In this document: positions 8,223-64,000 of the stretch, in pieces
How positions within the stretch are numbered: the first letter of the stretch is position 1
Layout of the letters: each line of letters begins with the position of its first letter
Origin: Bretschneidera sinensis
Taxonomy: Eukaryota; Streptophyta; Magnoliopsida; Brassicales; Akaniaceae
Reading direction: 5' to 3'
Length of the DNA stretch: 64,000 nt
NCBI GenBank assembly: GCA_023935145.1
Contig: CM043700.1
Location: forward strand, 34,629,456 to 34,693,455
Notes under the pieces: generated by a model
Told to the model about the DNA's origin: nothing
What the model saw: the letters and a program-made list of their open reading frames with translations, nothing else
Databases searched by the model: none
Made by a program: the position numbers and the translations under genes

Positions 8223-8389
8223 GCCATATTTTATCTGTACTTCGAGGTCGTTAGTTGTAACTTGTTTAAAAAATTAATAAAAATTTATTTCTATAAACTT
8301 TTGTCTTTCATACAATAGTTCCGTGTTTTTACACTTAGTTTGTTTTAAGATAACCGTTTTGGGATAACCTTCCTTCTTGGAACTCGAGC

Positions 8390-25322: not shown

Positions 25323-25530
25323 AAAGATATTTTAGAGGTTCATAAAGGTCCATTTACAGGTCAAGGCCATAAAGGACTATATGAAATCCTAACAACATCA
25401 TGGCATGCTAAATTATCTCTTAACCTAGCTATGCAAGGCTTCTTAACCATTGTTGTAGCTCACCATATGTATTCCATGCCACCGTATCCATATATAGCTA
25501 CTGATTATGGTTCAGAGCTGTCATTGTTGA
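25323..25530 (+). pseudogene. psaA: psaA fragment 1 (group alpha)
   Basis: First copy of the array. All copies encode a part from the middle of PsaA, seen as [60 protein letters not shown] and DYGTELSLF. PsaA itself is a thylakoid membrane protein of about 750 residues that binds P700 with PsaB; a 69-codon piece cannot function. The left junction is GGCCG instead of GGTCCC, and the right end is TCATTGTTGA. The frame is open. Confidence 0.92.
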
Positions 25531-26178
25531 TGTCTGTTGGTTTTCTGAAGAGAGACTTATTCTGAGTTCTAATTCTAATTGAATTCCATGCTGGAAAAGT
25601 TGTATTATTGTCCCTTCGGTTGTGCTTTTCTGTTGCTATTTTCAAGGAAAGACTAATTCCAAATTCTAATTTGCACTTGAATTCATTATGGTAAACATTA
25701 TGTTGTTTTGTCCTTTCGGTGGTCTTTTTCCCTTTGTCATTTGAAGAAAGACTAATTCTGAATTCTAAATCAAATTGAATTCCATGCTGGTAAAGATTTA
25801 AATGAATTTCATGCATATTGTTTTGTCCCTTCGATGGTGCATTCCTGGTGGTTTTGAATTATTTTTGGGAAACATTGTATTCTTTTGGTCCCTTCGATTG
25901 TGCATGTCCGTTGGTTTTTTGAAGGAAAGACTAATTCTGAATTCTATTTGCACTTGAATTCATTATGGTAAACATTATGGTTTTGTCCCTTCGGTGATCC
26001 TTGTCCCTTTGTTATTTGAAGAAAGACTAATTCTGAATTCTAAATCAAATTGAATTCCATGCGGGCAAAGATTCAAATGAATTTCATGCAGGCAAAAATC
26101 GTATTGTTTTATCCCTTCGGTGGTGTATTCCTAGTGGTTTTGAATTATTTATGGGAAACATTGTATTCTTTTGGTCCC

Positions 26179-26386
26179 AAAGATATTTTAGAGGTTGATA
26201 AATGTCCATTTACATGTGAAGGCCATACAGGACTATATGAAATCCTAACAACATCATGGCATGCTCAATTATCTCTTAACCTAGCTATGTTAGGCTCTTT
26301 AACCATTGTTGTAGCTCACCATATGTATTTAATGCTCCCTTATCCATATCTAACTACTAATTAAGGTACAGAACTGTCATTGTTCA
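26179..26386 (+). pseudogene. psaA: psaA fragment 2 (group beta)
   Basis: Has GTTGATAAATGTCC and ACATGTGAAGGCCATACA, shared only with fragment 20. Ends in the group-beta stop (ACTAATTAAGG in place of ACTGATTATGG). Confidence 0.9.
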
Positions 26387-26757
26387 TGTTTGTTGGTTTT
26401 CTGAAGAGAGACTTATTCTGAATTCTAATTCTAATGGAATTCCATGCTGGAAAAGTTGTATTATTGTCTTTCGGGTGGTGCATTTCTGTTGGTTTTTTGA
26501 AGGAAAGACTAATTCTGAATTCTATTTGCACTTGAATTCATTATGGTAAACATTATGTTTTTTGTCCTTCCGGTGGTCCTTGTCCCTTTGTCATTTGAAG
26601 AAAGACTAATTCTGAATTCTAAATCCAATTGAATTCCATGCTGGTAAAGATTCAATTGAATTTCATGCAGACAAACATCGTAATGTTTTATCCCTTCGGT
26701 GGTGCATTCCTGGTGGTTTTGAATTATTTATGAGAAACATTGTATTTTTTTGGCCCC

Positions 26758-26965
26758 AAAGATATTTTAGAGGTTTATAAAGGTCCATTTACAGGTCAAA
26801 GCCATAAAGGACTATATGAAATTCTAACAACATCATGGCATGCTCAATTATCTCTTAACCTAGCTATGCTAGGCTCTTTAACCATTGTTGTAGCTCACCA
26901 TATGTATTCAATGCCACCATATCCATATCTAGCTACTGATTATGGTACAGAACTGTCGTTGTTGA
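26758..26965 (+). pseudogene. psaA: psaA fragment 3 (group alpha)
   Basis: Open frame. Left flank GGCCCC; AAAGCCATAAAGG in place of CAAGGCCATAAAGG. Confidence 0.9.
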
Positions 26966-27711
26966 TGTCTGTTGGTTTTCTGAAGAGAGACTTATTCTGA
27001 GTTCTAATTCTAACTGAATTCAATGTAGGAAAAGTTGTATTATTGTCTCTTCGGTTGTGCTTTTTTGTTGCTATTTTGAAGGAAAGCCTAATTCCGAATT
27101 CTAATTTGCACTTGAATTCATTATGGTAAACATTATGTTGTTTTGTCCCTTCGGTGGTCCTTGTCCCTTTGTCATTTGAAGAAAGACTAATTTTGAATTC
27201 TAAATCAAATTGAATTCCATGCTGGTAAAGATTCAAATGAATTTCATGCATATTGTTTTGTCCCTTCGGTGGTGCATTCCTTGTTGTTTTGAATTATTTT
27301 TGGGAAACATTGTATTCTTTTGGTCCCTTCGATTGTGCATGTCCGTTGGTTTTCTGACGAGAGACTTATTTTAATTTCTAATTCTAATTGAATTCCATGA
27401 TGAAAAAGTTGTATTATTGTCCCTTCGGTGGTGCCTTTCTGTTGGTTTTTTGAAGGAAAGACTAATTCTGAATTCTATTTGCACTTGAATTCATTATGGT
27501 AAACATTATGGTTTTTTGTCCCTTCGGTGGTCCTTGTCCCTTTGTCATTTGAAGAAAGACTAATTCTGAATTCTAAATCAAATCGAATTCCATGTTGGCA
27601 AAGATTCAAATGAATTTCATGCAGGCAAACATCATATTGTTTTATCCCTTCGGTGGTGCATTCTTGGTGGTTTTGAATTATTTATGGGAAACATTGTATT
27701 CTTTTGGTCCC

Positions 27712-27919
27712 AAAGATATTTTAGAGGTTGATAAAGGTCCATTTACAGGTCAAGGCCATAAAGGTCTATATGAAATCCTAACAACATCATGCCATGCTCA
27801 ATTATCTCTTAACCTAGCTATGTTAGGCTCTTTAACCATTGTTGTAGCTCACCATATGTATTCAATGCCCCCTTATCCATATCTAGCTATTGATTATGGT
27901 ACAGAACTGTCATTGTTCA
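27712..27919 (+). pseudogene. psaA: psaA fragment 4 (group alpha)
   Basis: Open frame with a Trp-to-Cys change (TCATGCCATGC) that fragment 15 also has. Confidence 0.9.
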
Positions 27920-28664
27920 TGTCTATTGGTTTTTTGAAGAGAGACTTATTCTGAGTTCTAATTCTAATTGAATTCCATGCTGGAAAAGTTATATTATTGT
28001 CCATTCGATGGTGCCTTTCTGTTGGTTTTTTGAAGGAAAGACTAATTCTGAATTCTATTTGCACTTGACTTCATTATGGTAAACATTATGTTTTTTTGTC
28101 CCTTCCGTGGTCCTTGTCCTTTTGTCATTTGAAGAAAGACTAATTCTGAATTCTAAATCAAATTGAATTCCATGTTGGTAAAGATTCAAATGAATTTCAT
28201 GCATATTGTGTTGTCTTTTCGGTGGTGCATTCCTGGTGGTTTTGAATTATTTTTGGGAAATATTGTTTGCTTTTGGTCCCTTCGATTGTGCATGTCTGTT
28301 GGTTTTCTGATGAGAGACTTATGCTAAATTCTAATTCTAATTGAATTCCATGAGGGAAAAGTTGTATTATTGTCCCTTCGGTGGTGCCTTTCTGTTGGTT
28401 TTTTGAAGGAAAGACTAATTCTGAATTCTATTTGCACTTGAATTCATTATGGTAAACATTATGTTTTTTTGTTGCTTCGGTGGTCCTTGTCCCGTTGTCA
28501 TTTGCATAAATACTAATTCTGAATTCTAAATCAAATTGAATTCCATGCTGGCAAAGATTCAATTGAATTTCATGCAGACAAACATCATAATGTTTTATCC
28601 CTTCGGTGGTGCATTCCTGGTGGTTTTGAATTATTTCTGAGAAACATTGTATTCTTTTGGCCCC

Positions 28665-28852
28665 AAAGATGTTTTAGAGGTTTATAAAGGTCCATTTACA
28701 GGTCAAGGCCATAAAGGACTATATGAAATCATAACAACATCATGACATGCTCAATTATCTCTTAGAATTCATTGTTGTAGCTCACCATATGTATTCCATG
28801 CCATCGTATCCATATCTAGCTACTGATTATGGTAGAGAACTGTCGTTGTTTA
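28665..28852 (+). pseudogene. psaA: psaA fragment 5 (group alpha, internal deletion)
   Basis: About 26 bp are missing after CTCTTA and are replaced by GAATTC. A TGA stop replaces Trp in TCATGACATGC. Confidence 0.88.
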
Positions 28853-29570
28853 TGTCTGTTGGTTTTCTGAAGAGAGACTTATTCTGAATTCTAATTCTAA
28901 TTGAATTTCATGCTGGAAAAGTTGTATTGTTGTCCCTCCGGTTGTGCTTTTCTGTTGCTATTTTGAAGGAAAGATTAATTCCGAATTCTAATTTGCACTT
29001 AAATTGATTATGGTAAACATTATGTTTTTTTGTCCCTTCAGTGGTCCTTGTCCCTTTGTCATTTGAAGAGGCTAATTCTGAATTATAAATCAAATTGAAT
29101 TCCATGCTGGTAAAGATTCAAATGAATTTCATGCATATTGTTTTGTCCCTTCGTTGGTGCATTCCCGGTGGTTTTGAATTATTTATGGGAAACATTGTAT
29201 TCTTTTGGTCCCTTCGATTGTGCATGTCCGTTGGTTTTCTGGTGAGAGACTTATTCTAAATTCTAATTCTAATTGAATTCCATGATGGAAAAGTTGTATT
29301 ATTGTCTCTTCGGTGGTGCCTTTCTGTTGGGTTTTTGAAGGAAAGACTAATTCTGAATTTTCTTTGCACTTGAATTCATTATGGTAAACATTACGTTTTT
29401 TTTGTCCCTTTGGTAGTCCTTGACCCCTTGTCATTTGAAGAAAGACTAATTCTGTATTCTAAATCAACTTTAATTGCATGTTGACAAACATCATATTGTT
29501 TTGTCCCTTCGGTGGTGCATTCCTGCTGGTTTTGAATTATTTTTGGGAAACATTGTATTCTTTTGGTCCC

Positions 29571-29778
29571 AAAGATATTTTAGAGGTTGATAAGGGTCCA
29601 TTTACAAGTTAAGGCCATAAAGGACTATATGAAATCCTAACAACATCATGGTCTGCGCAATTATCTCTTAACCTAGCTATGTTAGGCTCTTTAACCATTG
29701 TTGTAGCTCACCATATCTATTCCATGCCCCCTTATCCATATTTAGCTACTGATTATGGTACAGAACTGTCATTGTTCA
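29571..29778 (+). pseudogene. psaA: psaA fragment 6 (group alpha)
   Basis: Full length, with a TAA stop (AAGTTAAGGCC in place of GGTCAAGGCC). Confidence 0.9.
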
Positions 29779-30068
29779 TGTCTTTTGGCTTTCAGAACAG
29801 AGACTTATTCTGAGTTCTAATTCTAATTGAGTTCCATGCTGGAAAAGTTGTATTATTGTCCATTCGGTTGTGCTTTTCTGTTTGTTTTTTGAAGGAAAGA
29901 CTAATTCCGAATTCTAATATGCATTTGAATTCATTATGGTAAACATTATGTTTTTTTGTTGCTTTGTCATTTGAAGAAAGACTAATTCTGAATTCTAAAT
30001 CAAATTAATTTCATGCTGGTAAAGATTCAAATGAATTTCATGCATATTGTTTTGTCGCTTCGGTGGTG

Positions 30069-31054
30069 TGTTGTTGTGAGTTTTAAATTACTTGCAAGCG
30101 CACGAATCGTTTGCAATATAGTGTTGTGCAAGTGCGAGGTCGAATCAACAGGGAATGCGTTGTGAAAATAGCTTTTTATCTAAACTAACCTTATTTTAAC
30201 CTAGTTCCGAATTGTGAATTATATTTTTGCAAAACAAATATAAACTAAACTAAACTAAACTAAATTGATTTAATAACTAATGATGAAAACACTAAGGTTT
30301 AATAATCCACCCAACCAAAGTAAAGCATATATCTTCATGTTCTATATAAAAAAAATAATCTATCTAACATTCCGTGAATCCAACAAAAACAACGAATATC
30401 CCAATTAAACCAAAAGCATCCAATGTATCTGCTTTTAACAAATCACAAAGGAAATTCAATTTAATCGAAAAAGATTCGACGTATCCATCGAATGAAACAC
30501 ACAGAATATCCAACAGAACAATTAAAACTATTAATCGTAAGATTTTACTAAAATAATTGAAATAGAACATTTAAACTAAACATATCAGAATTGTATAAAC
30601 ATATCTGAAAATACAATACTAAACAATAGCGAGGCTTCATCTTCAACCTTAGCTGAAGATTTTAGCCACTTATTATCATGAAACTAAATTTCACAATAAA
30701 AAGTGCTAAGCATTAAAAACTGGAAAAGAATTAAAACTAACTGTATATTGGGAGAAATTTCACACGTTGTTGGGCAGCACTTCCTCCGGTGGTGGCAAAA
30801 GCCTTTAGGCGATCTACTAGAATGCTAGTAGAAATCCACCAGACTGCATACTGAATAATGAGGTGGGATAGTGTTTATATAAGGGATTTCTCGGAGTACA
30901 ATGAGCTGCAAATTCGATGTGGGATACTGCCTCTTTGCGATCGATCGCAGCATGGTGCGATCGATCGCAGCATGGTGCGATGCAATGCGTCTGGCGCGCT
31001 GTAAGTGCTTCCTATCCGATGTGGGATGTGCGAGTCAACTGCGATCGATCGCAA
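30069..31054 (-). mobile_element. Partial LTR (solo, truncated) inserted in the satellite array
   Basis: About 985 bp unlike the array. The left part (TACTTGCAAGCGCACGAATC, then GAGGTCGAATCAACAGGGAA) resembles the 3' part of plant gypsy LTRs in minus orientation and parallels the TCGATTCCACAGGGAAAC part of LTR1. It also has CGATGTGGGATGTG like LTR1. The start expected on the minus strand (TGATGAGAGTC) is missing, so it is truncated. It holds a (TAAAC)n tract near 30,241-30,265. TGTTG occurs at both borders (30,072-30,076 and 31,058-31,062), but this is part of normal array sequence and not a safe TSD. Confidence 0.6.
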
Positions 31055-31056
31055 CC
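30935..31056. repeat. Palindrome-bearing short repeats in the partial LTR
   Basis: The perfect palindrome GCGATCGATCGC occurs three times; the first two lie in a direct tandem repeat of about 21 bp (GCGATCGATCGCAGCATGGT). The third lies at the right border of the insert. Confidence 0.85.
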
Positions 31057-31704
31057 TTGTTGGTTTTTTGAACGAAAGACTAATTCTGAATTCTAATTTG
31101 CATTTGAATTCATTATAGTAAATATTATGTTTTTTCTGTCTCTTCGGTGGTCCTTGTCCCTTTATCATTTGAAGAAAGACTAATTCTGAATTCTAAATCA
31201 AATTGAATTGCATGCTGGTAAAGATTCAAATGAATTTCATGCATATTGTTTGGTCCCTTTGGTGGTGCATTCTTGGTGGTTTTGAATTATATATGGGAAA
31301 CATTGTATTCTTTTGGTCCTTTCGATTGTGCATGTCCGTGGGTTTTCTGACAAGACACTTATTCTAAATTCTAATTATGATAGAATTCAATGCTTGAAAA
31401 GTTGTATTATTTTCCCTTCGGTGGTGCCTTTCTGTTGGTTTTTTGAAGGAAAGACTAATTCTGAATTCTATTTGCACTTGAATTCATTATGGTAAACATT
31501 ATGTTTTTTTGTCCTTTCGGTGGTCCTTGTCCCTTTGTCATTTGAAGAAAGACTAATTCTGGATTCTAATTCAAATTGAATTCCAAGCTGGCAAAGATTC
31601 AAACGAATTTCATAATGACAAACATCGTATTGTTTTGTCCCTTCGGTGGGGCATTCCTAGTGGTTTTGAATTATTTATGGGAAACATTGTATTCTTTTGA
31701 TCCC

Positions 31705-31912
31705 AAAGATATTTTAGAGGTTTATAAAGGTACATTTACAGGTCAAGGGCATAAAGGATTATATGAAATCCTAACAACATCATAACATGCTCAATTATCT
31801 CTTAACTTAGCTATGTTAGGCTCTTTAACCATTGTTATAGCTCACCATATGTATTCCATGCCCACTGATCCATATGTAGCTACTGATTATGGTACAGAAC
31901 TGTCATTGTTCA
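31705..31912 (+). pseudogene. psaA: psaA fragment 7 (group alpha)
   Basis: Full length, with a TAA stop in place of Trp (TCATAACATGC). It lies between the partial LTR and the LINE. Confidence 0.9.
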
Positions 31913-32078
31913 TGTCTGTTGGTTTTCTAAAGAGAGACTTATTCTGAGTTCTAATTCTAATTTGAGTTCCATGCTGGAAAAGTTGTATTATTGCCCCTTC
32001 GATTGTGCTTTTCTGTTGGTTGTTTGAAGGAAAGACTAATTCTGAATTCTAATTTGCATTTGAATTCATTATGGTAAA

Positions 32079-32091
32079 CATTATCTTTTTT
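32079..32091. repeat. LINE target-site duplication (left)
   Basis: CATTATCTTTTTT, repeated at 34,731-34,743. The array consensus here is CATTATGTTTTTT; both copies share the C, as expected of a true duplication. Confidence 0.85.
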
Positions 32092-34730
32092 TTTATCAGT
32101 AAATAAAACCTGTATTAATAAAAAATTTACAAAAGAATCCTTAGGCATACCCAGGAGATATACAGAGATCAAGCACAGAAAGCAAAATAAGCTTATAAAG
32201 AAGCCTACACAAAAGCTTACAAAATGTGCTTACAAGAGAAGCCTAATTTGGGGACAGAGGGCATACACTATTCTATATATTACAATCTGAATCTTTTTGA
32301 CAAGACTGGAAGTAAGAACAGGGGCATGGTTAAACAGTTTTGCATTTCTAGACATCCATATGCTGTAAACTGAGCATGCTAGGGCAATCCTTTTGGAAAT
32401 GGCTGGAGGGGTAGTTCCTCTCATTTTTTGGGATCACTTGACTGCACTCTCAATTCTGTTCATCTGTCTTCTGCAGCTAAGCCACCTTTTGTTGGCTTCC
32501 CATGTTTCCTTGCTGATCTTGCATGAGAAGAAGAGGTGCTCTCTTGATTCCTCCTGCTCTTTACATAGGGGACAAAGCTTGTCATCTCCTTCCAACAGGA
32601 TTCTGTCCTTGGTGAGGAGCTTGTTCTGAATGGTTGGCCATAGGATAAAAGAGTGTTTGGGCGGGGGGGGGGGGGGGCAGTGACCATACCAAACCATTGA
32701 AACCCATCTGACCTTGTGACCTTTCTGCCTAATAGAGTTATAGACCTTCTTAATGCACAAATCATCCTGAACTCTCCATTCCAAAAGTCTGTCCCTAGCC
32801 TGCAGGGTGGAGGATGATTGAGCAATAAGATCATCTCTAATCTCCAGAATTTTCTTCCAGAGTGGGGAACCATCCTTTCTTGCCATGATCTCCCAGATTG
32901 ACCTGTTAGTGAGATAGTAATGTTGAACCCACTGGATCCACAATGAGTCTTTCTTCATGTGGATGTTCCAAAGGACCTTGGTAAGGAGACCCTTGTTCCA
33001 GGCTTTCAAGTCAACCAAGCCAAGCTCACCTTCTGATTTTGGTTTACAGATATCAGCCCAGGCAACCAGAGCCTTCCTCATATCATTACTTTTACCATTC
33101 CAAAGAAATGTTCTACACATCCTAACAATTTTCTCCAGAATATTGCCAGGGATTGGGAAAATAGCCGGCCAGAAACACTCCACACCTTGAAGCACAGATT
33201 TGATTAACTCAGTTCTGCCAGCATATGATAGGGAAGATCCAGCCCATATATTTATGTAGCCAGAGATTTTTTCAATGAAGGGGAAGTAGTGAGTAGCATT
33301 TAACTTTGCTGCAGCCAAAGACACCCCCAGATATTTGAAGGGGAAGGATTCATCCTCCATTCCAGTGATCTTTCTGATTTCCAAAAGCTCTACAGCCTGG
33401 ACTCCTGCATGGAATATATTTGATTTAGGCAGGCTGGCCTGCAGCCCAGAGCACTCACTGAAATGGTTGACACAGTTCATAATCTGCCCAATAGATCTAC
33501 CATCCCCCCTGGCAAACAGAATAAGGTCATCAACAAAAGCCAGGTGAGTGATCTTGAGTTTATCACATTTTGGGTGGAATCTGAAACCATTCTCTTCTTT
33601 TAATCTCCCAAGGAGCCTGGACAAATACTCCACTACCAAGACAAACAAGTATGGGGAGAGGGGGTCTCTTTGTCTGAGGCCTCTTTTACCAACAAAAAAA
33701 CCATGCAAGCTACCATTGATGGATAGAGAGTAGGCTGTGGTAGTAACACATTCCATGATCCATTTTCTAAACTTATCAAGGAATCAAAGGCCCTCAATCA
33801 AGTTGTTCAGAAAATCCCATACCACAGTGTCATAGGCTTTTTTGAGGTTAATCTTGATTATGCATCTTGGGGAGATTCTCTTCCTACAATACTTCTTAAG
33901 TAGCTCCTGAACCAGGTATATGTTTTCAGCCATACTTCTAGCCTTGATGAAAGCAGCCTGGGCAGGGTTGACAATAATGCTCAAAATAGGAGATAACCTG
34001 GAAGCAAGGATATTGGAAATGATCTTGTAAATCACATTGCAACAGGCTATAGGTTTGAAGTCCTCCACTTTAGTGGCCTGCTTTCCCTTAGGAATCAAGG
34101 CAAGAGATGTATGGTTAAGCTGTTTAAGGAGTCTCCCATTCAGGAAAAATTCCTGCACAGCCTCTATGACATCATGGCTGACCACATCCCAAGCTTTCTT
34201 GAAGAACCTTGATGTGTAGCTATTAGGACCAGGGGACTTATCATCCCCAATACTCCAAAGTGCACCCTTAATCTCCTCCACTGTGACTTCCCTAATCAGC
34301 TGTTCAGCTTGACTCTCTTGGATTGTGGGACCATCTTTGATAATTTCCTGATCAATAGGCCTGCTACTGGCTGAGGAGCCAATGTGGACCTTGTAGAACT
34401 TCAGAAACTCCTCAGCTACTTCAGCTTCTGAGGAGGTCAGATCCCCTCTTGAGGACTCCACTACAGCTATATGGCTCTTACTAGTCTTTCTTTTAACCAA
34501 GCCATGGAAAAATTTGGAGTCCCTATCACTATTTAGAAGGTATCTGCATTTGGCCTGCTGGGAAAGAAAACTTCTCCCAACTTCAGCAAGATTGAAGGCA
34601 ATCAACTTCTGGCTAGCGACCAATGTTTGGAGTTCAGAATCAGATGGATTGTCATGGAGTTCCTCTTGGAGGCTGGACAACTTTTGTGAAACCTCAAGAG
34701 CTCTCTTTGAAATGTGACTGAAGTGTTTTT
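32092..34730 (-). mobile_element. 5'-truncated plant LINE inserted in the satellite array
   Basis: A 2.6-kb minus-strand element with an A-tail at its 3' end (T-run at 32,085-32,094), bounded by a 13-bp TSD. Only the RT and C-terminal part of ORF2 is present. ORF1 and the endonuclease are missing, as is usual after incomplete reverse transcription. Plant L1-type LINEs are generally 6-7 kb. Confidence 0.9.
32230..34728 (-). pseudogene. LINE ORF2 fragment: reverse transcriptase and zf-RVT region
   Basis: One frame is open from the 5' truncation point with two in-frame stops (near 33,784 and 32,434). Domains in order: a helical region (LNSDRDSKFFHGLVKRK); RT with DDKSPGPNSYTSRFFKKAW, LIPKGKQATKVEDFKPIACC, AFIKARSMAENIYLVQEL, INLKKAYDTVVW, GLRQRDPLSPYLFVLVVEYL and THLAFVDDLILFARG; then a zf-RVT-like part with CPLCKEQEESREHLFFSC. 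Motif A reads INLKKAYD where the family has IDLxKAYD, so a catalytic Asp is Asn. A poly-G tract at about 32,663-32,678 encodes a proline run unusual for the family. The enzyme would nick and reverse transcribe at target sites; this copy is inactive. Confidence 0.88.
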
Positions 34731-34743
34731 CATTATCTTTTTT
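34731..34743. repeat. LINE target-site duplication (right)
   Basis: CATTATCTTTTTT, matching 32,079-32,091. Array sequence (GTCCCTTCGGTGG) resumes right after it. Confidence 0.85.
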
Positions 34744-35261
34744 GTCCCTTCGGTGGTCCTTGTCCCTTTGTCATTTGAAGAAAGACTAATTCTGAATTCT
34801 AAATCAAATTGAATTCCATGCTGGTAAGGATAAGGATTCAAATGAATTTCATGGATATTGTTTTGTCCCTTCGGTGGTGCATTCTTGGTGGTTTTGAATT
34901 ATTTATGGGAAACATTGTATTCTTTTGGTCCCTTCGATTGTGCATGTCTATGGGATTTCTGACGAGAGACTTTTTCTAAATTCTAATTCTAATTGAATTC
35001 CATGCTGGAAAAACTAATTCTGAATTCTATTTGCACTTGAATTCATTATGGTAAACATTATGTTTTTTTGTCCCTTCGGTGGTCCTTGTCCCTTTGTCAT
35101 TTGAAGAAAGTCTAATTGAATTCTAATTCAAATTGAATTCCATGCTGGTAAAGATTCAAATGAATTTCATGCAGATAAACATCGTGTTGTTTTGTCCCTT
35201 CGGTGGTGCATTCCTGGTGGTTTTGAATTATTTATGGGAAACATTTTATTCTTTTGGTCCC

Positions 35262-35469
35262 AAAGATATTTGAGAGGTTCATAAAGGTACATTTACAGGT
35301 CAAGGCCATAAAGGACTATATTAAATCCTAACAATATCATGGCATGCTCAATTATCTCTTAACCTAGCTATGTTAGGCTCTTTAACCATTGTTGTAGCTC
35401 ACCATATGTATTCCATGCCCCCTTATCCATATCTAGCTACTGATTATGGTACAGAATTGTCATTGTTCA
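35262..35469 (+). pseudogene. psaA: psaA fragment 8 (group alpha)
   Basis: A GAA-to-TAA stop (TATATTAAATCC) is shared with its macro-duplicate, fragment 14. Confidence 0.9.
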
Positions 35470-35843
35470 TGTTTGTTGGTTTTATGAAGAGAGACTTATT
35501 ATGAGTTCTAATTCTAATTGACTTCCATGCTGGAAAAGTTGTATTATTGTCCCTTCGGTTGTGCTTTTCTATTGGTTTTTTAAAGGAAAGACTAATTCCG
35601 AATTCTAATTTACACTTGAATTCATTATGGTAAACATTATGTTTTTTTTGTCCCTTCGATGGTCCTTGTCCCTTTGTCATTTGAAGAAAGACTAATTCTG
35701 AATTCTAAATCAAATTGAATTCAATGCTGGTAAAGATTCAAATGAATTTCATGCAGACAAACATCGTATTGTTTTATCCCTTCGGTGGTGTATTCTTGGT
35801 GGTTTTGAATTATTTATGGGAAACGTTGTATTCTTTTGGTCCC

Positions 35844-53337: not shown

Positions 53338-53545
53338 AAAGATATTTTAGAGGTTCATAAAGGTCTCTTTACAGATCAAGGCCTTGAAGGACTAGATGAA
53401 ATCCTAACAACATCATGGCATGCTCAATTATCTCTTAACCTAGCTATGTTAGGTTTTTTAACCATTGTTGTAGCTCACCATATGTATTCCATGACCCCTT
53501 ATCCATATCTATCTACTGATTATGGAACAGAACTGTCATTGTTTA
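53338..53545 (+). pseudogene. psaA: psaA fragment 31 (group gamma)
   Basis: Has GGTCTCTTTACAGATCAAGG and CTTGAAGGACTAGATG. In a 147-codon frame from ATG 53,218. Confidence 0.9.
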
Positions 53546-53917
53546 TGTCTGTTGTTTTTCTGAACGAAGACTTATTCTGCATTCTAATTTTAATTGAATT
53601 CCATGATGGAAAAGTTGTATTATTGTCCCATCGGTGGTGCCTTTTTGATAGGTTTTTGTAGGAAAGACTAATTCTGAATTCTATTTGCACTTGAATTCAT
53701 TATGGTAAACATTATGATTTTTTGTCCCTTCTGTGGTCCTTGTCCCTTTGTCATTTGAAGAAAGACTAATTTTGAATTCTAAATCAAATTTAATTCCATA
53801 CGGGCAAAGATTCAAATGAATTTCATGTAGACAAACATCGTATTGTTTTGTCCCTTCGGTGGTGCATTCCTGGTGGTTTTGAATTATTTATGGGAAACAT
53901 TGTATTCTTTTGGTCCC

Positions 53918-54125
53918 AAAGATATTTTAGAAGTTCATAAAGGTCCATTTACAGATCAAGGCCATAAAGGACTAGATGAAATCCTAACAACATCATGGCA
54001 TGCTCAGTTATCTCTTAACCTAGCTATGTTAGGCTTTTTAACCATTGTTGTAGCTCACCATATGTATTCCATGACCTCTTATCCATATCTAGCTACTGAT
54101 TATGGAACAGAACTGTCATTGTTTA
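53918..54125 (+). pseudogene. psaA: psaA fragment 32 (group gamma)
   Basis: ACAGATCAAGG and ACTAGATG as in fragments 31 and 43. ATGACCTCTTATCC. Confidence 0.9.
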
Positions 54126-54373
54126 TGTCGTTTTTCTGAACAAAGACTTATTCTGCATTCTAATTTTAATTGAATTCCATGATGGAAAAGTTGTATTATT
54201 GTTCCATCGGTGGTGCCTTTTTGATAGGTTTTTGTAGGAAAGACTAATTCTGAATTCTATTTGCACTTGAATTCATTATGGTAAACATTATGTTTTTTTG
54301 TCTCTTCGGTGGTCCTTTTCCCTTTGTCATTTGAAGAAAGACTAATTCTGAATTCTAAATCAAATTGAATTCC

Positions 54374-54865
54374 ATGCTGGCAAAGATTCAAATGAATTTC
54401 ATGCAGGCAAACATCGTCTTGTTTTGTCCCTTCAGTGGTGCATTCTTGGTGGTTTTGAATTATTTATGGGAAACATTGTATTCTTTTGGTCCCAAAGATA
54501 TTTTAGAGGTTCATAAAGGTCCATTTACAGGTCAACGCCATAAAGGACTATATGAAATCCTAACAACATCATGGTACACTCAATTATCTCTTAACCTAGC
54601 TATGTTAGGCTCTTTAACCATTGTTGTAGCTCACCATATGTATTCCATGCCCCCTTATCCATATCTAGTTGTTGATTATGGTATAGAGCTGTCATTGTTA
54701 ACGTCTGTTGGTTTTCTGAAGAGAGACTTATTCTATGTTCTAATTCTAATTGAATTTCATGTTGGAAAAGTGGTATTTTTGTCCCTTCAGTTGTGCGTTT
54801 CTGTTGATTTTTTGAAGGAAAGACTAATTCTGAAGTCTAATTTTCACTTGAATTCATTATGGTAA
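54374..54865 (+). other. Chimeric open frame, satellite-psaA-satellite (163 codons)
   Basis: From a true ATG the frame reads about 40 residues of satellite ([20 protein letters not shown]), then 69 of psaA, then about 50 of satellite. A similar ATG frame lies at 58,026-58,517 (163 codons). Probably chance openness kept by shared ancestry; no promoter or expression evidence. Confidence 0.35.
54494..54701 (+). pseudogene. psaA: psaA fragment 33 (group epsilon)
   Basis: Open frame. Group mark GTTGTTGATTATGGTATAGAG. Trp-Tyr-Thr (TGGTACACTC) in place of Trp-His-Ala. Confidence 0.9.
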
Positions 54866-55449
54866 ACATTATGTTGTTTTTGTCCTTTCGGTGGTCCTTG
54901 TCCATTTGTCATTTGAAGAAAGTCTAATTCTGAATTCTAATTCAAATCGAATTCCATGCTGGTAAAGTCTCAAATGAATTTCATGCATATTATTTTGTCC
55001 CTACGGTGGTGCATTCCTGGTGGTTTTGAATTATTTAAGGGAAACACTGTATTCTTTTGGTCCCTTCGATTGTGCATGTCCGTTGTTTTTCTGACGAGAG
55101 ACTTGTTCTAATTTCTAATTCTAATTGAATTCCGTGCTGGAAAAGTTGTATTATTGTCCCTTCGGTGGTGCCTTTCTGTTGGTTTTTTGAAGGAAAGACT
55201 AATTCTGAATTCTATTTGCACTTGAATTCATTATGGTAAACATTATGTTTTTTTTGTCTCTTTGGTGGTCCTTGTCCCTTTGTCATCTGAAGAAAAACTA
55301 ATTCTCAATTCTACATCAAATTGAATTCCATGCTAGCAAAGATTCAAATGAATTTCAGGCAGACAATCATCGTGTTGTTTTGTCGCTTCGGTGGTGCATT
55401 CTTTGTGGTTTTGAATTATTTATGGGAAACGTTGTATTCTTTTGATCCC

Positions 55450-55656
55450 AAAGATATTTTTGAGGTTCATAAAGGTCCATTTACAGGTCAAGGCCATAAA
55501 AGACTACATGATATCCTAAAAATGTCATGGCATGTCAATTATCTCTTAACCTAGCTATGTTAGGCTCTTTAACCATTGTTGTAGCTCACCATATCTATTC
55601 TATGCCCCATTTTCCATTTCTAGCTACTGATTATAGTACAGAACTGTCATTGTTCA
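55450..55656 (+). pseudogene. psaA: psaA fragment 34 (group delta)
   Basis: Group-delta frameshift. CATAAAAGACTACATGATATCC. Left flank GATCCC. Confidence 0.9.
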
Positions 55657-56401
55657 TGTCTGTTGGTTTTCTGAAGAGAGACTTATTTTGAGTTCTAATT
55701 CTAATTGAATTCCATGCTGGAAAAGTTGTATTATTGTCTCTTCGGTTGTGCTTTTCTGTCAGTTTTCTGAAGGAAAGACTAATTCCGAATTCTAAGTTGA
55801 ACTTGAATTCATTATGGTAAACATTATTTTTTTTTTGTCCCTTCGGTGGTCCTTGTCCATCTGTCATTTGAAGAAAGACTAATTCTGAATTCTAATTGAA
55901 ATTGAATTCCATGCTAGTAAAGATTTAAATGAATTTCATGCATATTGTTTTGTCCCTTCGGTGGTGCGTTCTTGGTGGTTTTGAATTATTTATGGGAAAT
56001 ACTGTATTCTTTTAGTCCCTTCGATTGTGCATGTCCGTTGGTTTTCTGACGAGAGACTTGTTCTAAGTTCTAATTCTTATTGAATTTCATGCTTGAAAAG
56101 TTGTGTTATTGTCCCTTCAGTGGTGCCTTTCTGTTGATCTTTTGAAGGAAAGACTACTTCTGAATTCTATTTGCACTTGAGTTCATTATGGTAAACATTA
56201 TATTTTTGTCCCTTCGGTGGTCCTTGTCCCTTTGTCATTTGAAGAAAGATTAATTCTGAATTCTAAATCAACTTTGATTCAATGCTGGCAAAGATTCAAA
56301 TGAATTTCATGCAGGCAAACATCGTATTGTTTTGTCCCTTCGGTGATGCATTCTTGGTGGTTTTGAATTATTTATGGGAAATATTGTATTCTTTTGGTCC
56401 C

Positions 56402-56608
56402 AAAGATATTTTTGAGGTTCATAAAGGTCCATTTACAGGTCAAGGCCATAAAGGACTATATAAAATTCTAAAAACATCATGGCATGTCAATTATCTCTTA
56501 ACCTAGCTATGTTAGGCTCTTTAACCATTGTTGTAGCTCACCATATCTATTCCATGCCCCCTTTTCCATATCTAGCTACTGATTATAGTACAGAACTGTC
56601 ATTGTTCA
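56402..56608 (+). pseudogene. psaA: psaA fragment 35 (group delta)
   Basis: Group-delta frameshift. TATATAAAATTC gives a TAA stop shared with fragment 39. Confidence 0.9.
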
Positions 56609-57320
56609 TGTCTGTTGGTTTTATAAAGAGAGACTTATTTTGAGTTCTAATTCTAATTGAATTCCGTGTCGAAAAAGTTGTATTATTGTCCATTCGGTTG
56701 TGCTTTTCTAAAGGAAAGACTAATTCCGAATTCTAATTTGAACTTGAATTCATTATGGTAAACATTATGTTTTTTTGTCCCTTCGGTGGTCATTGTCCCT
56801 CTGTCATTTGAAGAAAGGCTAATTCTGAATTCTCAATCAAATTGAATTCCATGCTGGTAAAGATTCAAAAGAATTTTCATGCATATTGTTTTGTCCTTTC
56901 GGTGGTGAATTCTTGATGGTTTTGAATTATTTATGGGAAACATTGTTTTCTTTTGGCCCCTTCGATTGTGCATGTCCGTTGGTTTTCTAACGAGAGACTT
57001 ATTCTAAATTCTAATTTTAATTGAATTCCATGATGGAAAAGTTGTAATATTATCCCTTCAGTGGTGCCTTTCTTATGGGTTTTTTTTTGTAGGAAAGACT
57101 AATTCTGAATTCTATTTGAACTTGAATTCATTATGGTAAACATTATGTTTTTTTTGTCCCTTCGGTGGTACTTGTCCCTTTGTTATTTGAAGAAAGACTA
57201 ATTCTAAATTCTAAATCAACTTTAATTCCATGTGGGCAAAGATTCAAATGAATTTCATGCAGACAAAGATCGTCTTGTTTTGTCCCTTCGGTGGTGTATT
57301 CCTGGTGGTTTTGAATTATT

Positions 57321-57401
57321 GTTGTAGCTCACCATATGTATTCCCTGCCACCTTATCCATATCTAGTTGTTGATTATGGTACAGAGCTGTCATTGTTCAT
57401 G
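57321..57401 (+). pseudogene. psaA: psaA fragment 36 (group epsilon, 5'-truncated)
   Basis: The satellite word GAATTATT joins straight to GTTGTAGCTCACC, so about 125 bp of psaA and the satellite piece before it are lost. ATT at the joint is microhomology. Fragment 40 has the same joint. Confidence 0.88.
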
Positions 57402-58145
57402 TCTGTTGGTTTTTTGAAGAGAGACTTATTCTATGTTCTAATTCTAATTGAATTTCCTGCTGGAGAAGTGGTGTTTTTGTCCATTCGGTGTACGTTTCTG
57501 TTGATTTTTTGAAGGAAAGACTAATTCCGAAGTCTAATTTGCACTTGAATTCATTATGGTAAACATTATGTTTTTTTTTTCCTTTCGGTGGTCCTTGTCC
57601 ATTTGTCATTTGAAGAAAGACTGATTCTGAATTCTAATTCAAATTGAATTTCATGCTGGTAAAGACTCAAATGAATTTCATGCATATTGTTTTGTCCTTT
57701 CGGTGGTGCATTCCTGGTGGTTTTGAATTATTTAAGGGAAAGACTATATTCTTTTGGTCCCTTCGATTGTGCATGTCCGTTGGTTTTCTGACGAGAGACT
57801 TGTTCTAAATTCTAATTCTTATTGAATTTAATGCTGGAAAAGTTGTATTATTGTCCCTTTGGTGGTGTCTTTCTGTTGGTTTTTTGAAGGAAAGACTAAT
57901 TCTGAATTCTATTTGCACTTGAATTCATTATGGTAAACATTATGTTTTTTTGTTCATTTGGTGGTCCTTGTCCCTTTGTCTTTTGAAGAAAGATTAATTC
58001 TGAATTCTAAGTCAACTTTGATTCCATGCTGGCAAAGATTCAAAGGAATTTCATGCAGGCAAACATCGTCTTGTTTTGTCCCTTCGGTGATGCATTCTTG
58101 GTGGTTTTGAATTATTTATGGGAAACATTATATTCTTTTGGTCCC

Positions 58146-58353
58146 AAAGATATTTTAGAGGTTCATAAAGGTCCATTTACAGGTGAACGCCATAAAGGAC
58201 TATATGAAATCCTAACAACATCATGGTACGCTCAATTATCTCTTAACCTAGCTATGTTAGGCTCTTTAACCATTGTTGTAGCTCACCATATGTATTCTAT
58301 GCCCCCTTATCCATATCTAGTTGTTGATTATGGTATAGAGCTATCATTGTTAA
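58146..58353 (+). pseudogene. psaA: psaA fragment 37 (group epsilon)
   Basis: Duplicate of fragment 33; open. CAGGTGAACGCC in place of CAGGTCAACGCC. Confidence 0.9.
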
Positions 58354-59100
58354 TGTCTGTTGGTTTTCTGAAGAGAGACTTATTCTATGTTCTAATTCTA
58401 ATTGAATTTCATGTTGGAAAAAGGGTATTTTTGTCCCTTCAGTTGTGCGTTTTTGTTGATTTTTTGAAGGAAAGACTAATTTCGAAGTCTAATTTTCACT
58501 TGAATTCATTATGGTAAACATTATGTTTTTTTTGTCTTTTCGGTGGTCCTTGTCCATTTGTCATTTGAAGAAAGACTAATTCTGATTTCTAATTCAAATC
58601 GAATTCCATGCTGGTAAAGTCTCAAATGAATTTCATGCATATTGTTTTGTCCCTTCGGTGGTGCATTCCTGGTGGTTTTGAATTATTTAAGGGAAACACT
58701 GTATTCTTTTGGTCCCTTCGATTGTGCATGTCCGTTGGTTTTCTAACGAGAGACTTGTTCTAAATTCTAATTCTTATTGAATTCCATGCTGGAAAAGTTG
58801 TATTATTGTCCCTTCGGTGGTGTCTTTCTGTTGGTTTTTTGAAGGAAAGACTAATTCTGAATTCTATTTGCACTTGAATTCATTATGGTAAACATTATGT
58901 TTTTTTGTCCCTTTGGTGGTCCTTGTCCCTTTGTCATCTGAAGAAAAACAAATTCTCAATTCTACATCAAATTGAATTCCATGCTAGCAAAGATTCAAAT
59001 GAATTTCATGCAGACAAACATCGTGTTGTTTTGTCGCTTCGGCGGTGCATTCTTTGTGGTTTTTAATTATTTATGGGAAACGTTGTATTCTTTTGATCCC

Positions 59101-59307
59101 TAAGATATTTTTGAGGTTCATAAAGGTCCATTAACAGGTCAAGGCCATAAAAAACTACATGATATCCTAAAAATGTCATGGCATGTCAATTATCTCTTCA
59201 CCTAGCTATGTTAGGCTCTTTAACCATTGTTGTAGCTCACCATATCTATTCCATGCCCCCTTTTCCATTTCTAGCTACTGATTATAGTACAGAATTGTCA
59301 TTGTTCA
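59101..59307 (+). pseudogene. psaA: psaA fragment 38 (group delta)
   Basis: Duplicate of fragment 34. Starts TAAGATAT; CTCTTCACC in place of CTCTTAACC. Confidence 0.9.
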
Positions 59308-60054
59308 TGTCTGTTGGTTTTCTGAAGAGAGACTTACTTTGAGTTCTAATTCTAATTGAATTCCATGCTGGAAAAGTTGTATTATTGTCCCTACGGTTGT
59401 GCTTTTTTGTTGGTTTTCTGAAGGAAAGACTAATTCCGAATTCTAAGTTGAACTTGAATTAATTATGGTAAACATTATTTTTTTTTTGTCCTTTCGGTGG
59501 TCATTGTCCATCTGTCATTTGAAGAAAGACTAATTCTGAATTCTAATTGAAATTGAATTCCATGCTGGTAAAGATTCAAATAAATTTCATGCATATTGTT
59601 TTGTCCCTTCGGTGGTGCATTCCTGGTGGTTTTGAATTATTTATGGGAAATACTGTATTCTTTTAGTCCCTTCGATTGTGCATGTCCGTTGGTTTTCTGA
59701 CGAGAGACTTGCTCTAAATTCTAATTCTTATTGAATTCCATGCTGGAAAAGTTGTGTTATTGTCCCTTCAGTGGTGCCTTTCTGTTGATCTTTTGAAGGA
59801 AAGACTACTTCTGAATTCTATTTGCACTTGAATTTATTATGGTAAACATTATATTTTTTTGTCCCTTCGGTGGTCCTTGTCCCTTTGTCATTTGAAGAAA
59901 GATTAATTCTGAATTCTAAATCAACTTTGATTCAATGCTGGCAAAGATTCAAATGAATTTCATGCAGGCAAACATCGTATTGTTTTGTCCCTTCGGTGAT
60001 GCATTCTTGGTGGTTTTGAATTATTTATGGGAAATATTGTATTCTTTTGGTCCC

Positions 60055-60261
60055 AAAGATATTTTTGAGGTTCATAAAGGTCCATTTATAGGTCAAGGCC
60101 ATAAAGGACTATATAAAATTCTAAAAACATCATGGCATGTCAATTATCTCTTAACCTAGCTATGTTAGGCTCTTTAACCATTGTTGTAGCTCACCATATC
60201 TATTCCATGCCCCCTTTTCCATATCTAGCTACTGATTATAGTACAGAACTGTCATTGTTCA
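60055..60261 (+). pseudogene. psaA: psaA fragment 39 (group delta)
   Basis: Duplicate of fragment 35 with the same TAA stop. TTTATAGGTC. Confidence 0.9.
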
Positions 60262-60971
60262 TGTCTGTTGGTTTTATAAAGAGAGACTTATTTTGAGTTC
60301 TAATTCTAATTGAATTCCGTGTCGAAAAAGTTGTATTATTGTCCATTCGGTTGTGCTTTTCTAAAGGAAAGACTAATTCCGAATTCTAATTTGAACTTGA
60401 ATTCATTATGGTAAACATTATGTTTTTTTGTCCCTTCGGTGGTCCTTGTCCCTCTGTCATTTGAAGAAAGGCTAATTCTGAATTCTCAATCAAATTGAAT
60501 TCCATGCTGTAAAGATTCAAAAGAATTTTCATGCATATTGTTTTGTCCTTTCGGTGGTGAATTCTTGAAGGTTTTGAATTATTTATGGGAAACATTGTTT
60601 TCTTTTGGCCCCTTCGATTGTGCATGTCCGTTGGTTTTCTAACGAGAGACTTATTCTAAATTCTAATTTTAATTGAATTCTATGATGGAAAAGTTGTAAT
60701 ATTATCCCTTCAGTGGTGCCTTTCTTATGGGTTTTTTTTGTAGGAAAGACTAATTCTGAATTCTATTTGAACTTGAATTCATTATGGTAAACATTATGTT
60801 TTTTTTGTCCCTTCGGTGGTACTTGTCCCTTTGTTATTTGAAGAAAGACTAATTCTGAATTCTAAATCAACTTTAATTCCATGTGGGCAAAGATTCAAAT
60901 GAATTTCATGCAGACAAAGATCGTCTTGTTTTGTCCCTTCGGTGGTGTATTCCTGGTGGTTTTGAATTATT

Positions 60972-61050
60972 GTTGTAGCTCATCATATGTATTCCCTGCC
61001 ACCTTATCCATATCTAGTTGTTGATTATGGTACAGTGCTGTCATTGTTCA
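60972..61050 (+). pseudogene. psaA: psaA fragment 40 (group epsilon, 5'-truncated)
   Basis: Same truncation joint as fragment 36, without that copy's 2-bp insertion. TACAGTGCTG is private. Confidence 0.88.
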
Positions 61051-61796
61051 TGTCTGTTGGTTTTCTGAAGAGAGACTTATTCTATGTTCTAATTCTAATT
61101 GAATTTCATGCTGGAAAAGTGGTGTTTTTGTCCATTCGGTGTACGTTTCTGTTGATTTTTTGAAGGAAAGACTAATTCCGAAGTCTAATTTGCACTTGAA
61201 TTCATTATGGTAAACATTATGTTTTTTTTGTCCTTTCGGTGGTCCTTGTCCATTTGTCATTTGAAGAAAGACTGATTCTGAATTCTAATTCAAATTGAAT
61301 TTCATGCTGGTAAAGACTCAAATGAATTTCATGCATATTGTTTTGTCCTTTCGGTGGTGCATTCCTGGTGGTTTTGAATTATTTAAGGGAAAGACTATAT
61401 TCTTTTGGTCCCTTCGATTGTGCATGTCCGTTGGTTTTCTGACGAGAGACTTGTTCTAAATTCTAATTCTTATTGAATTTCATGCTGGAAAAGTTGTATT
61501 ATTGTCCCTTTGGTGGTGCCTTTCTGTTGATTTTTTGAAGGAAAGACTAATTCTAAATTCTATTTGTACTTGAATTCATTATGGTAAACATTATGTTTTT
61601 TTGTTCCTTTGGTGGTCCTTGTCCCTTTGTCATTTGAAGAAAGATTAATTCTGAATTCTAAATCAACTTTGATTCCATGCTGGCAAAGATTCAAATGAAT
61701 TTCATGCTGGCAAACATCGTACCATTTTGTCCCTTCGGTGATGCATTCTTGGTGGTTTTGAATTATTTATGGGAAACATTGTATTCTTTTGGTCCC

Positions 61797-61994
61797 AAAG
61801 ATATTTTTGAGGTTCATAAAGGTCCATTTACAGGTTAAGGCCATAATAAAATTCTAAAAACATCATGGCATGTCAATTATCTCTTAACCTAGCTATGTTA
61901 GGCTCTTTAACCATTGTTGTAGCTCACCATATCTATTCCATGCCCCCTTTTCCATATCTAGCTACTAATTATAGTACAGAACTGTCATTGTTCA
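61797..61994 (+). pseudogene. psaA: psaA fragment 41 (group delta)
   Basis: Group-delta frameshift plus a further deletion of about 9 bp (CATAATAAAATTC) and TTAAGG stop. Confidence 0.88.
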
Positions 61995-62732
61995 TATCTG
62001 TTGGTTTTATGAAGAGAGACTTATTTTGAGTTCTAATTCTAATTGAATTCCGTGCCTGAAAAGTTGTATTATTGTTCCTTCGGTTATGCTTTTCTGAAGG
62101 AAAGACTAATTCCGAATTCTAATTTGAACTTGAATTCATTATGGTAAACATTATGTTTTTTTGTCCCTTCGGTGGTCCTTGTCCCTCTGTCATTTGAAGA
62201 AAGACTAATTCTGAATTCTCAATCAAATTGAATTCCATGCTGGTAAAGATTCAAAAGAATTTTCATGCATATTGTTTTGTCCCTTCGGTGGTGAATTCTT
62301 GATGGTTTTGAAGTATTTATGGGAAACATTGTTTTCTTTTGGTCCCTTCGATTGTGCATGTCCGTTGGTTTTCTGACGAGAGACTTATTCTAAATTCTAA
62401 TTTTAATTGAATTCCATTATGGAAAACTTGTATTATTGTCCCTTCAGTGGTGCCTTTCTGATGTGTTTTTTTGTAGGAAAGACTAATTCTGAATTCTATT
62501 TGCACTTGAATTCATTATGGTAAATATTATGTTTTTTTGTCCCTTCGGTGGTACTTGTCCCTTTGTCATTTGAAGAAAGACTAATTCTGAATTCTAAATC
62601 AACTTTAATTCCATGCGGGCAAAGATTCAAATGAATTTCATGTAGACAAAGATCGTATTGTTTTGTCCCTTCGGTGGTGCATTCTTGGTGGTTTTGAATT
62701 ATTTATAGGAAACATTGTATTCTTTTGGTCCC

Positions 62733-62940
62733 AAAGATATTTTAGAGGTTCATAAAGGTACATTTACAGGTCAAGGCCATAAAGGACTATATGAAATCCT
62801 AACAAAATCATGGCATGCTCAATTATCTCTTAACCTAGCTATGTTAAGCTCTTTAACCATTGTTGTAGCTCACCATAAGTATTCCATGACCCCTTATCCA
62901 TATGTAGCTACTGAATATGATACAGAACTGTCATTGTTTA
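62733..62940 (+). pseudogene. psaA: psaA fragment 42 (group gamma)
   Basis: Open. ACAAAATCATGG, CACCATAAG and GAATATGATAC are private changes. Confidence 0.9.
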
Positions 62941-63686
62941 TGTCTGTTGTTTTTCTAAACAGAGACTTATTCTGCATTCTAATTCTAATTGAGTTCCATG
63001 CTGAAAAAGTTGTATTATTGACCCTTCGGTTGTGCTTTTCTGTTAGTTTTTTGAAGGAAATACTAATTCTCAATTCTAATTTGACCTTGTATTCATTATG
63101 GTAAACATTATGTTTTTTTGTCCCTTCGGTGGTCCTTGTCCCTCTATCGTCTGAAGAAAGACTAATTTTGAATTCTAATTCAAATTGAATTCCATGCTGG
63201 TAAAGATTCAAATGAATTTCATGCATATTGTTTTGTTCCTTCGGTGGTGCATTCCTGGTGGTTTTGAATTATTTATGGGAAACATTGTTTTCTTTTGGTC
63301 CATTCGATTGTGCATGTCCGTTGGTTTTCTGACGAGAGACTTATTCTAAATTCTAATTTTAATTGAATTCCATGATGGAAAGGTTGTATTATTGTCCCAT
63401 CGGTGGTGCCTTTTTGAGGGGTTTTTATAGGAAAGACTAATTCTGAATTCTATTTGCACTTGAATTCATTATGGTAAACATTATGTTTTTTTGTCCCTTC
63501 GGTGGTCCTTGTCCCTTTGTCATTTGAAGAAAGATTAATTCTGAATTCTAAATCAACTTTAATTCCATGCGGGCAAAGATTCAAATGAATTTCATGTAGG
63601 CAAACATTGTATTGTTTTGTCCCTTCGGTGGTGCATTCCTGGTGGTTTTGAATTATTTATGGGAAACATTGTATTCTTTTGGTCCC

Positions 63687-63894
63687 AAAGATATTTTAGA
63701 GGTTCATAAAGGTCCATTTACAGATCAAGGCCATAAAGGACTAGATGAAATCCTAACAACATCATGGCATGCTCAATTATCTCTTAACCTAGCTATGTTA
63801 GGCTCTTTAACCATTGTTGTAGCTCACCATATGTATTCCATGATCCCTTATCCATATCTAGCTACTGATTATGGTACAGAACTGTCATTGTTCA
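63687..63894 (+). pseudogene. psaA: psaA fragment 43 (group gamma)
   Basis: Last copy in the window. ACAGATCAAGG and ACTAGATG as in fragments 31 and 32. The array continues to the window edge. Confidence 0.9.
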
Positions 63895-64000
63895 TGTCTA
63901 TTGTTTTTCTGAACAGAGACTTATTCTGCGTTCTAATTCTAATTGAGTTCTATGTTGGAAAAGTTGTATTATTGTCCCTTTGGTTGTGCTTTTCTGTTGG

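Follow-up and report, generated by a model that had tools for sequence, protein, structure and literature searches.

Composition of the satellite array

We describe a tandem satellite array in which many units carry a fragment of the chloroplast gene psaA. The array lies in a 64,000-nucleotide stretch of the Bretschneidera sinensis genome (GenBank assembly GCA_023935145.1), referred to here in its entirety as the window, which corresponds to 34.63-34.69 Mb of a 146.5-Mb contig (C4) in a 1.21-Gb assembly. It runs from about 23,300 to the end of the window (64000), continues outside it, and is built of empty units, which consist of satellite sequence, and psaA-filled units (Table 1). An earlier note on this DNA had correctly recognized a tandem array but placed its start at the first psaA copy; the array already begins at ~23,300, with psaA-free monomers of ~98 bp.

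The window contains 72 instances of a 63-bp stretch that leads up to the insertion site, of which 41 are followed by psaA and 31 by satellite. This 72-site set excludes two psaA copies cut to 81 bp, since both have lost the 63-bp stretch. As in a satellite, the units resemble one another and follow head to tail on a single strand, with mostly regular spacing among the 72 sites. The median distance between successive sites is 384 bp from empty to filled (n = 28), 570 bp from filled to empty (n = 27), and 577 bp from filled to filled (n = 13); an empty site follows an empty site three times. The period of ~954-957 bp is one empty plus one filled unit, and filled units also adjoin each other directly. 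The 957-bp unit proposed in the earlier note thus exists as a pair (~954 bp) but is not a single unit, the actual units being ~384 bp when empty and ~570 bp when filled. A consensus built from 21 empty units has a length of 384 bp and divides into three pieces (96, 99, and 189 bp), the longest with two monomers in it, which is why we read the unit as four-part. The psaA piece makes up about one third of the filled unit.

BLASTN with a 210-bp copy as the query detected 43 psaA-like segments, every one of them on the plus strand of the window; 41 are essentially full and 2 are the 81-bp copies, exactly as counted earlier. The piece is ~207 bp long, and alignments of the full copies span 189 to 229 positions with 83 to 100% identity to the query copy. 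The query copy translates into 70 residues, and residues 2 to 70 match PsaA in solved structures of photosystem I, the best chain being 9s1l_A (PsaA residues 320 to 388; E value, 6e-39). An open reading frame (ORF) fusing satellite sequence to another psaA copy matches Pfam family PF00223 (E value, 1.6e-30). Chance resemblance to PsaA is excluded, and the earlier identification holds. The piece has two properties of nuclear plastid DNA (NUPT): homology to a plastid gene, seen in the peptide, and a nuclear location, seen in the length of the contig and in the retrotransposon gag, integrase, and long interspersed nuclear element (LINE) domains nearby. No plastid DNA matching the piece was found among the plasmids or genome contigs of the collections tried. 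The phages gave two records of a single Prochlorococcus phage (76%), and the viral contigs yielded one relative (78%), with no plastid DNA among them either. A protein search with a fused ORF returned 163 proteins (120 listed), of which the 13 examined contain PsaA sequence and no satellite part; the best match extends with PsaA residues past the shared stretch.

All 69 matches in a genome search, in which 3 of 149 candidates were scored, fall on the same contig and form two loci, so that the abundance of the satellite in the genome is given as a lower bound from the candidates scored. At the main locus (34.65-34.81 Mb) there are 77 psaA pieces. The window contains 43 of them, and the other 34 (30 of at least 180 bp and 4 shorter) lie outside it; the pieces form two blocks, at about 34.65-34.72 and 34.76-34.81 Mb, with ~40 kb lacking the unit in between. 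The second locus, at 25.37-25.38 Mb, lies 9.3 Mb away in the opposite orientation and holds 10 psaA pieces. Its order is EFEFFFFFFEFF, and 9 of its 10 psaA copies are joined to a left flank. Six of its nine psaA spacings are 578 to 581 bp (contig positions 25376001-25386000). Several filled units succeed one another at this locus, so that the tandem monomer here is the unit with psaA.

Table 1. Features of the window (64,000 nucleotides), with positions counted from its first letter
Feature	Position	Strand	Source or remark
Array left edge: diverged ~98-bp satellite monomers without psaA	23300..24502	+	
Array of empty (~373-387 bp) and psaA-filled (mostly ~570-582 bp) units	24503..64000	+	two non-satellite inserts within
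First empty unit detected	24503..24875	+	second empty unit follows at 24876
Typical empty unit, 384 bp	36918..37301	+	unoccupied-site consensus TTTTGGTCCC-TTCGATTGTG-CATGTCCG
Typical filled unit, 575 bp	37302..37876	+	
psaA copy 1	25322..25528	+	BLASTN
psaA copy 2	26176..26385	+	BLASTN
psaA copy 3	26755..26963	+	BLASTN
psaA copy 4 (query copy)	27709..27918	+	BLASTN
psaA copy 5 (20-bp internal deletion)	28662..28850	+	BLASTN
psaA copy 6	29568..29777	+	BLASTN
psaA copy 7	31702..31911	+	BLASTN
psaA copy 8	35259..35468	+	BLASTN
psaA copy 9	35841..36050	+	BLASTN
psaA copy 10	36408..36617	+	BLASTN
psaA copy 11	37362..37568	+	BLASTN
psaA copy 12	37937..38146	+	BLASTN
psaA copy 13	38890..39099	+	BLASTN
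psaA copy 14	39470..39679	+	BLASTN
psaA copy 15	40052..40261	+	BLASTN
psaA copy 16	40619..40828	+	BLASTN
psaA copy 17	41573..41779	+	BLASTN
psaA copy 18	42150..42358	+	BLASTN
psaA copy 19	43102..43311	+	BLASTN
psaA copy 20	43957..44166	+	BLASTN
psaA copy 21	44911..45119	+	BLASTN
psaA copy 22	45649..45857	+	BLASTN
psaA copy 23	46602..46810	+	BLASTN
psaA copy 24	47555..47764	+	BLASTN
psaA copy 25	48125..48332	+	BLASTN
psaA copy 26	49078..49286	+	BLASTN
psaA copy 27	50034..50243	+	BLASTN
psaA copy 28 (20-bp internal tandem duplication)	50586..50814	+	BLASTN
psaA copy 29	51177..51386	+	BLASTN
psaA copy 30 (20-bp internal tandem duplication)	52135..52363	+	BLASTN
psaA copy 31	53335..53543	+	BLASTN
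psaA copy 32	53915..54123	+	BLASTN
psaA copy 33	54491..54699	+	BLASTN
psaA copy 34	55447..55655	+	BLASTN
psaA copy 35	56399..56607	+	BLASTN
psaA copy 36, cut to 81 bp	57318..57398	+	BLASTN
psaA copy 37	58143..58351	+	BLASTN
psaA copy 38	59098..59306	+	BLASTN
psaA copy 39	60052..60260	+	BLASTN
psaA copy 40, cut to 81 bp (truncated like copy 36)	60969..61049	+	BLASTN
psaA copy 41	61794..61993	+	BLASTN
psaA copy 42	62730..62938	+	BLASTN
psaA copy 43	63684..63893	+	BLASTN
Block duplication, 4.45 kb at lag 4,210 bp, 95.8% identical	35029..43673	+	self-comparison
Block duplication, 6.2 kb at lag 3,652 bp, 94.3% identical	54144..63995	+	self-comparison
LINE (RVT_1, zf-RVT)	32090..34740	-	behind psaA copy 7; ends approximate

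One insertion site in filled and empty forms

All 41 filled sites lie behind the one 63-bp left flank and share their junctions, which bears out the claim that psaA sits at the same place in the repeat unit. In a filled site, TTTTGGTCCC is succeeded by psaA, which runs from AAAGATATT to CATTGTT, and next by CATGTCTG; an empty site reads TTTTGGTCCC TTCGATTGTG CATGTCCG. About 206 bp of psaA thus stand in place of 10 bp of satellite, a net gain of 196 bp, with an uncertainty of a few bases at the exact ends. The left junction, TTTTGGTCCC/AAAGATATT, is exact in 26 of the 41 copies, and the other 15 carry substitutions only. The right junction, CTGTCATTGTTC/ATGTCTGTTG, is exact in 19, with substitutions in the remaining 22, and the filled copy at 53915 has an additional 4-bp deletion just outside it. 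Among the 31 empty sites, TTTTGGTCCCTTCGATTGTGCATGTCCGTTG is exact in 14. The 10 bp of the empty site align with the same place of the other sub-monomers with two or three differences, and the empty form is therefore the older state, as excision could not restore these bases. We accordingly rejected the origin of empty units by psaA excision, because they carry the satellite's own 10 bp.

We evaluated the relationship of the units from their flanks alone, using ~170 bp to the left and ~150 bp to the right of the 72 window sites with psaA omitted. IQ-TREE splits filled from empty flanks with 0 of 72 sites misplaced, at an ultrafast bootstrap (UFBoot) of 71, which rises to 92 upon removal of four mosaic-looking copies chosen after inspection of the first tree. 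FastTree requires 3 label changes on the same flanks, compared to a mean of 23.5 and a minimum of 16 in 500 shuffles. With both loci included (162 of 163 sites, with 11 atypical sites set to empty and 1 dropped), it requires 4, compared to a shuffled mean of 54.3 and a minimum of 46. The left flank contains an 11-base indel that matches the state of the site in 67 of 72 cases, being present in 37 of 41 filled and absent from 30 of 31 empty units.

The inserts also share marks of their own. At one alanine position of PsaA, 40 of the 41 window copies encode valine and 1 isoleucine, and valine is found in 78 of the 81 full copies from both loci. The same position in 89 PsaA homologs with the motif is occupied by alanine in 83, asparagine in 4, serine in 1, threonine in 1, and valine in none. 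A second position encodes glutamate in 31 of the 41 window copies, lysine in 6, a stop in 2, and glutamine in 2, while 30 homologs have glutamine in 27, leucine in 2, and glutamate in 1, the last probably being the window's own copy. Because the filled and empty flanks separate in the trees, a single capture followed by coamplification is the best-supported explanation. The earlier proposal of one insertion multiplied with its monomer is upheld by the single site and its junctions, the 31 empty counterparts, the flank trees, and the shared residue change.

Transfer of organelle DNA into plant nuclei is frequent according to the accessible part of a review (PMC7037861), and the copies might instead represent many independent psaA insertions into a satellite hotspot. 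However, the same two junctions, the same replaced bases, and the same residue mark recur throughout, and the filled and empty lineages separate; we rejected independent insertion on the junctions and trees and assign it almost no probability. The donor itself could have been a mitochondrion with a resident plastid fragment, as plant mitochondrial genomes are known to carry plastid DNA. The data contain nothing against such a donor, but we consider it unlikely and presume that the plastid donated the piece directly. At the right end, ATTGT and CA are common to filled and empty sites, and at the left end, GGTC is compatible with a Gly-Leu codon pair in psaA. Judged from these bases, a short homology at each end was probably used in joining. 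Organelle DNA is known as a filler of breaks, with end joining at 1 to 7 bp of identity, in the portion of the same review available to us (PMC7037861).

Several points weigh against a single capture followed by coamplification. A UFBoot of 71 is moderate, and the label changes in FastTree number 3 rather than 1, with 5 for the left flank, 3 for the right flank, and 2 for the first 75 columns of the right flank. The best split across both loci leaves 7 of 162 sites on the wrong side. Among filled units, the right flank is the most diverse part, with a mean pairwise difference of 12.4%, compared to 9.1% in the left flank and 8.1% (maximum, 16%) in the insert. Insert distances correlate with those of the left flank (Mantel, 0.365; 0 of 1,000 permutations as high) but only weakly with those of the right flank (0.184; 53 of 1,000), which fits shuffling by exchange and weakens pure block copying. 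Finally, both the donor and the junction homology are putative. We take the extra label changes and misplaced sites as mosaics produced by exchange between units.

Multiplication and decay of the insert

Part of the array in the window consists of block duplications. The two duplicated blocks in Table 1 (95.8 and 94.3% identical) are more alike than the remaining 28 block pairs among those listed (88.7 to 91.3%), which constitutes a higher-order repeat. Many copies find their nearest relatives at fixed lags, and fixed lags together with duplicated blocks are the expected product of unequal exchange or block duplication. The two 81-bp copies, at 57318 and 60969, have the same deletion and are offset by 3,651 bp, which is the block-duplication lag. 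Copies 28 and 30 each contain an internal 20-bp stretch duplicated in tandem, at the same position in both and with one base different, likely a mark of common descent. Copies from the second locus differ from window copies by 0.081, as do window copies among themselves (0.081). The equality of these differences suggests that the capture predates the split of the loci.

The psaA frame is decaying neutrally. The 41 window copies contain 99 distinct nonsynonymous, 37 synonymous, and 11 stop changes, compared to 106.1, 33.5, and 7.4 expected under the observed mutation spectrum; the 81 full copies from both loci contain 173, 67, and 13, compared to 179.7, 60.1, and 13.1. This is the decay expected in the absence of selection. 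Transitions at G/C positions amount to 0.66 in the insert, 0.68 in filled flanks, and 0.64 in empty flanks, and those at A/T positions to 0.18, 0.23, and 0.19. The insert and its flanks thus share one mutation spectrum, such as would be expected of methylated nuclear DNA. C-to-T changes affect 8 of 8 CHG and 42 of 69 CHH cytosines (Fisher P = 0.045), a weak difference on which we do not rely.

Fused open frames reach 166 amino acids, and 37 of the 81 full copies keep an intact psaA frame, less often in the window (14 of 41) than in the remainder of the main locus (16 of 30) or at the second locus (7 of 10). Open frames might be expected if the satellite-psaA fusion were a coding element under selection. 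Such a role is very improbable given that synonymous, nonsynonymous, and stop counts fit neutrality and that one frameshift is common to 11 window copies, and we rejected a coding function on the neutral counts in the window and at both loci. At the DNA level, the piece is presumably without function as well. One could suppose that the captured piece was favored by its fit to the chromatin spacing of the array. The added 196 bp turn a unit of about two nucleosome lengths (384 bp, or 2 by 192) into one of about three (570 to 577 bp, or 3 by 190 to 192), so that filled units would stay in register and could spread; at the second locus, filled units make up the tandem unit almost by themselves. 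Distances of 286, 329, 354, 358, and 548 to 559 bp do not fit such spacing, and we regard the idea as doubtful. Satellites are difficult to assemble, and 5,000 N bases lie near the far end of the retrieved stretch beyond the window, which raises the question of whether the array or its alternation of filled and empty units is an assembly artifact. Against this, copies differ by 8.1% on average and by up to 16%, a LINE interrupts the array, and the second locus on the same contig is arranged differently. There is very little likelihood of such an artifact, a danger the earlier note had itself raised, although copy number and order may be inexact.

Proposed history, known systems, and neighboring features

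We hold it highly probable, for the account as a whole, that a satellite captured psaA once by repair, multiplied it, and let it decay as a passenger. A nuclear satellite of ~98-bp monomers would first have acquired a ~375-bp unit composed of four monomer-length parts. A double-strand break in one unit would then have been repaired with organelle DNA as filler, break repair being our reading of the observed junctions. The filled unit and its neighbors would have been multiplied by block duplication and by unequal exchange, the latter as the presumed engine. Such multiplication could yield the ~954-bp pairs of empty and filled units, the ~577-bp filled runs, the 3.65- and 4.2-kb lags, and the inverted second locus. 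The psaA piece would be a passenger that mutates like the remaining satellite and is not retained as a protein.

In most cases, the entry of foreign sequence into a satellite has to be inferred when unfilled units no longer exist. Alternating filled and empty units in one array make the insertion, the replaced bases, and the later exchange directly readable. Because the parent gene is highly conserved, the starting sequence of the insert is nearly known, which makes the insert a marker that, given the species' plastid sequence, could serve as a yardstick for mutation, exchange, and homogenization in a satellite. Both the presence of plastid DNA in nuclei and its amplification in tandem have been described before; the new form seen here is a fixed plastid segment in a satellite unit beside empty units. 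In the nuclear mitochondrial DNA (Numt) of the domestic cat, which Lopez et al. are said to have described in 1994, organelle DNA is also tandemly amplified in the nucleus, but the unit is reportedly the kilobase-sized mitochondrial fragment itself, unlike the satellite-embedded psaA.

A limited search of the open-access literature found no satellite whose units contain a plastid fragment as a constant component and occur both filled and empty. Nothing in it contradicts the earlier statement that psaA is not known to be part of any named satellite, although this evidence is limited. The accessible parts of PMC11049143, PMC9372453, PMC6387171, and PMC12244726 mention no plastid fragment inside a satellite unit. 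The NUPT clusters of Asparagus officinalis, as presented in the available text of PMC7037861, likewise consist of nuclear plastid DNA multiplied in tandem, but there the repeat is the organelle DNA itself, whereas here the organelle piece lies within a preexisting satellite unit. "Tandemly arrayed clusters" of NUPTs also appear in the available portion of PMC11110229. The papaya Y^h chromosome has 23 copies of a plastid-derived rps15 sequence, whose proliferation is ascribed to neighboring retrotransposons (PMC7037861, in part), and the HSY-R29 repeat has chloroplast-like flanks (PMC4035066, in part). Both resemble our case in that plastid-like DNA was raised to many copies on one chromosome, but these excerpts mention no satellite whose units exist both filled and empty. 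Bd49, a tandem repeat of the Brachycome dichromosomatica B chromosome, is similarly linked to or interspersed with chloroplast-like DNA; in the accessible text, however, that DNA flanks the repeats in some clones, with a retrotransposon suspected, and is not a regular part of the unit (PMC6210368). For the Allium centromeric repeats AfCen1K and AcCen1K, chloroplast DNA is inserted near a long satellite, but the insertions lie near the arrays (read pairs and fluorescence in situ hybridization), and the available part of the paper does not describe amplification within the monomer (PMC7644871).

The LINE within the array has CATTATCTTTTTT at both ends, an apparent 13-bp target duplication, and the best named match of its protein is from Actinidia (49%). 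The other non-satellite stretch in the array (30080-31060, ~1 kb) is unclassified and contains the repeat TGCGATCGATCGCAGCATGG. Immediately to the left of the array lies 475 bp of ATT-rich simple sequence (22770-23244). A remnant retrotransposon of the long terminal repeat type occupies 5341-11421 on the minus strand, with gag (best named match, Juglans, 71%), two subthreshold RVT_1 pieces, and an integrase. Antisense to its gag ORF, an Rfam snoR71 match at 5861-5968 on the plus strand scores 45.5 bits (gathering threshold, 40) and is possibly due to chance. Tandem repeats outside the array are present at 20748-21327 (287 bp by 2, 97% matches) and 14545-14786 (64 bp by 3.8).

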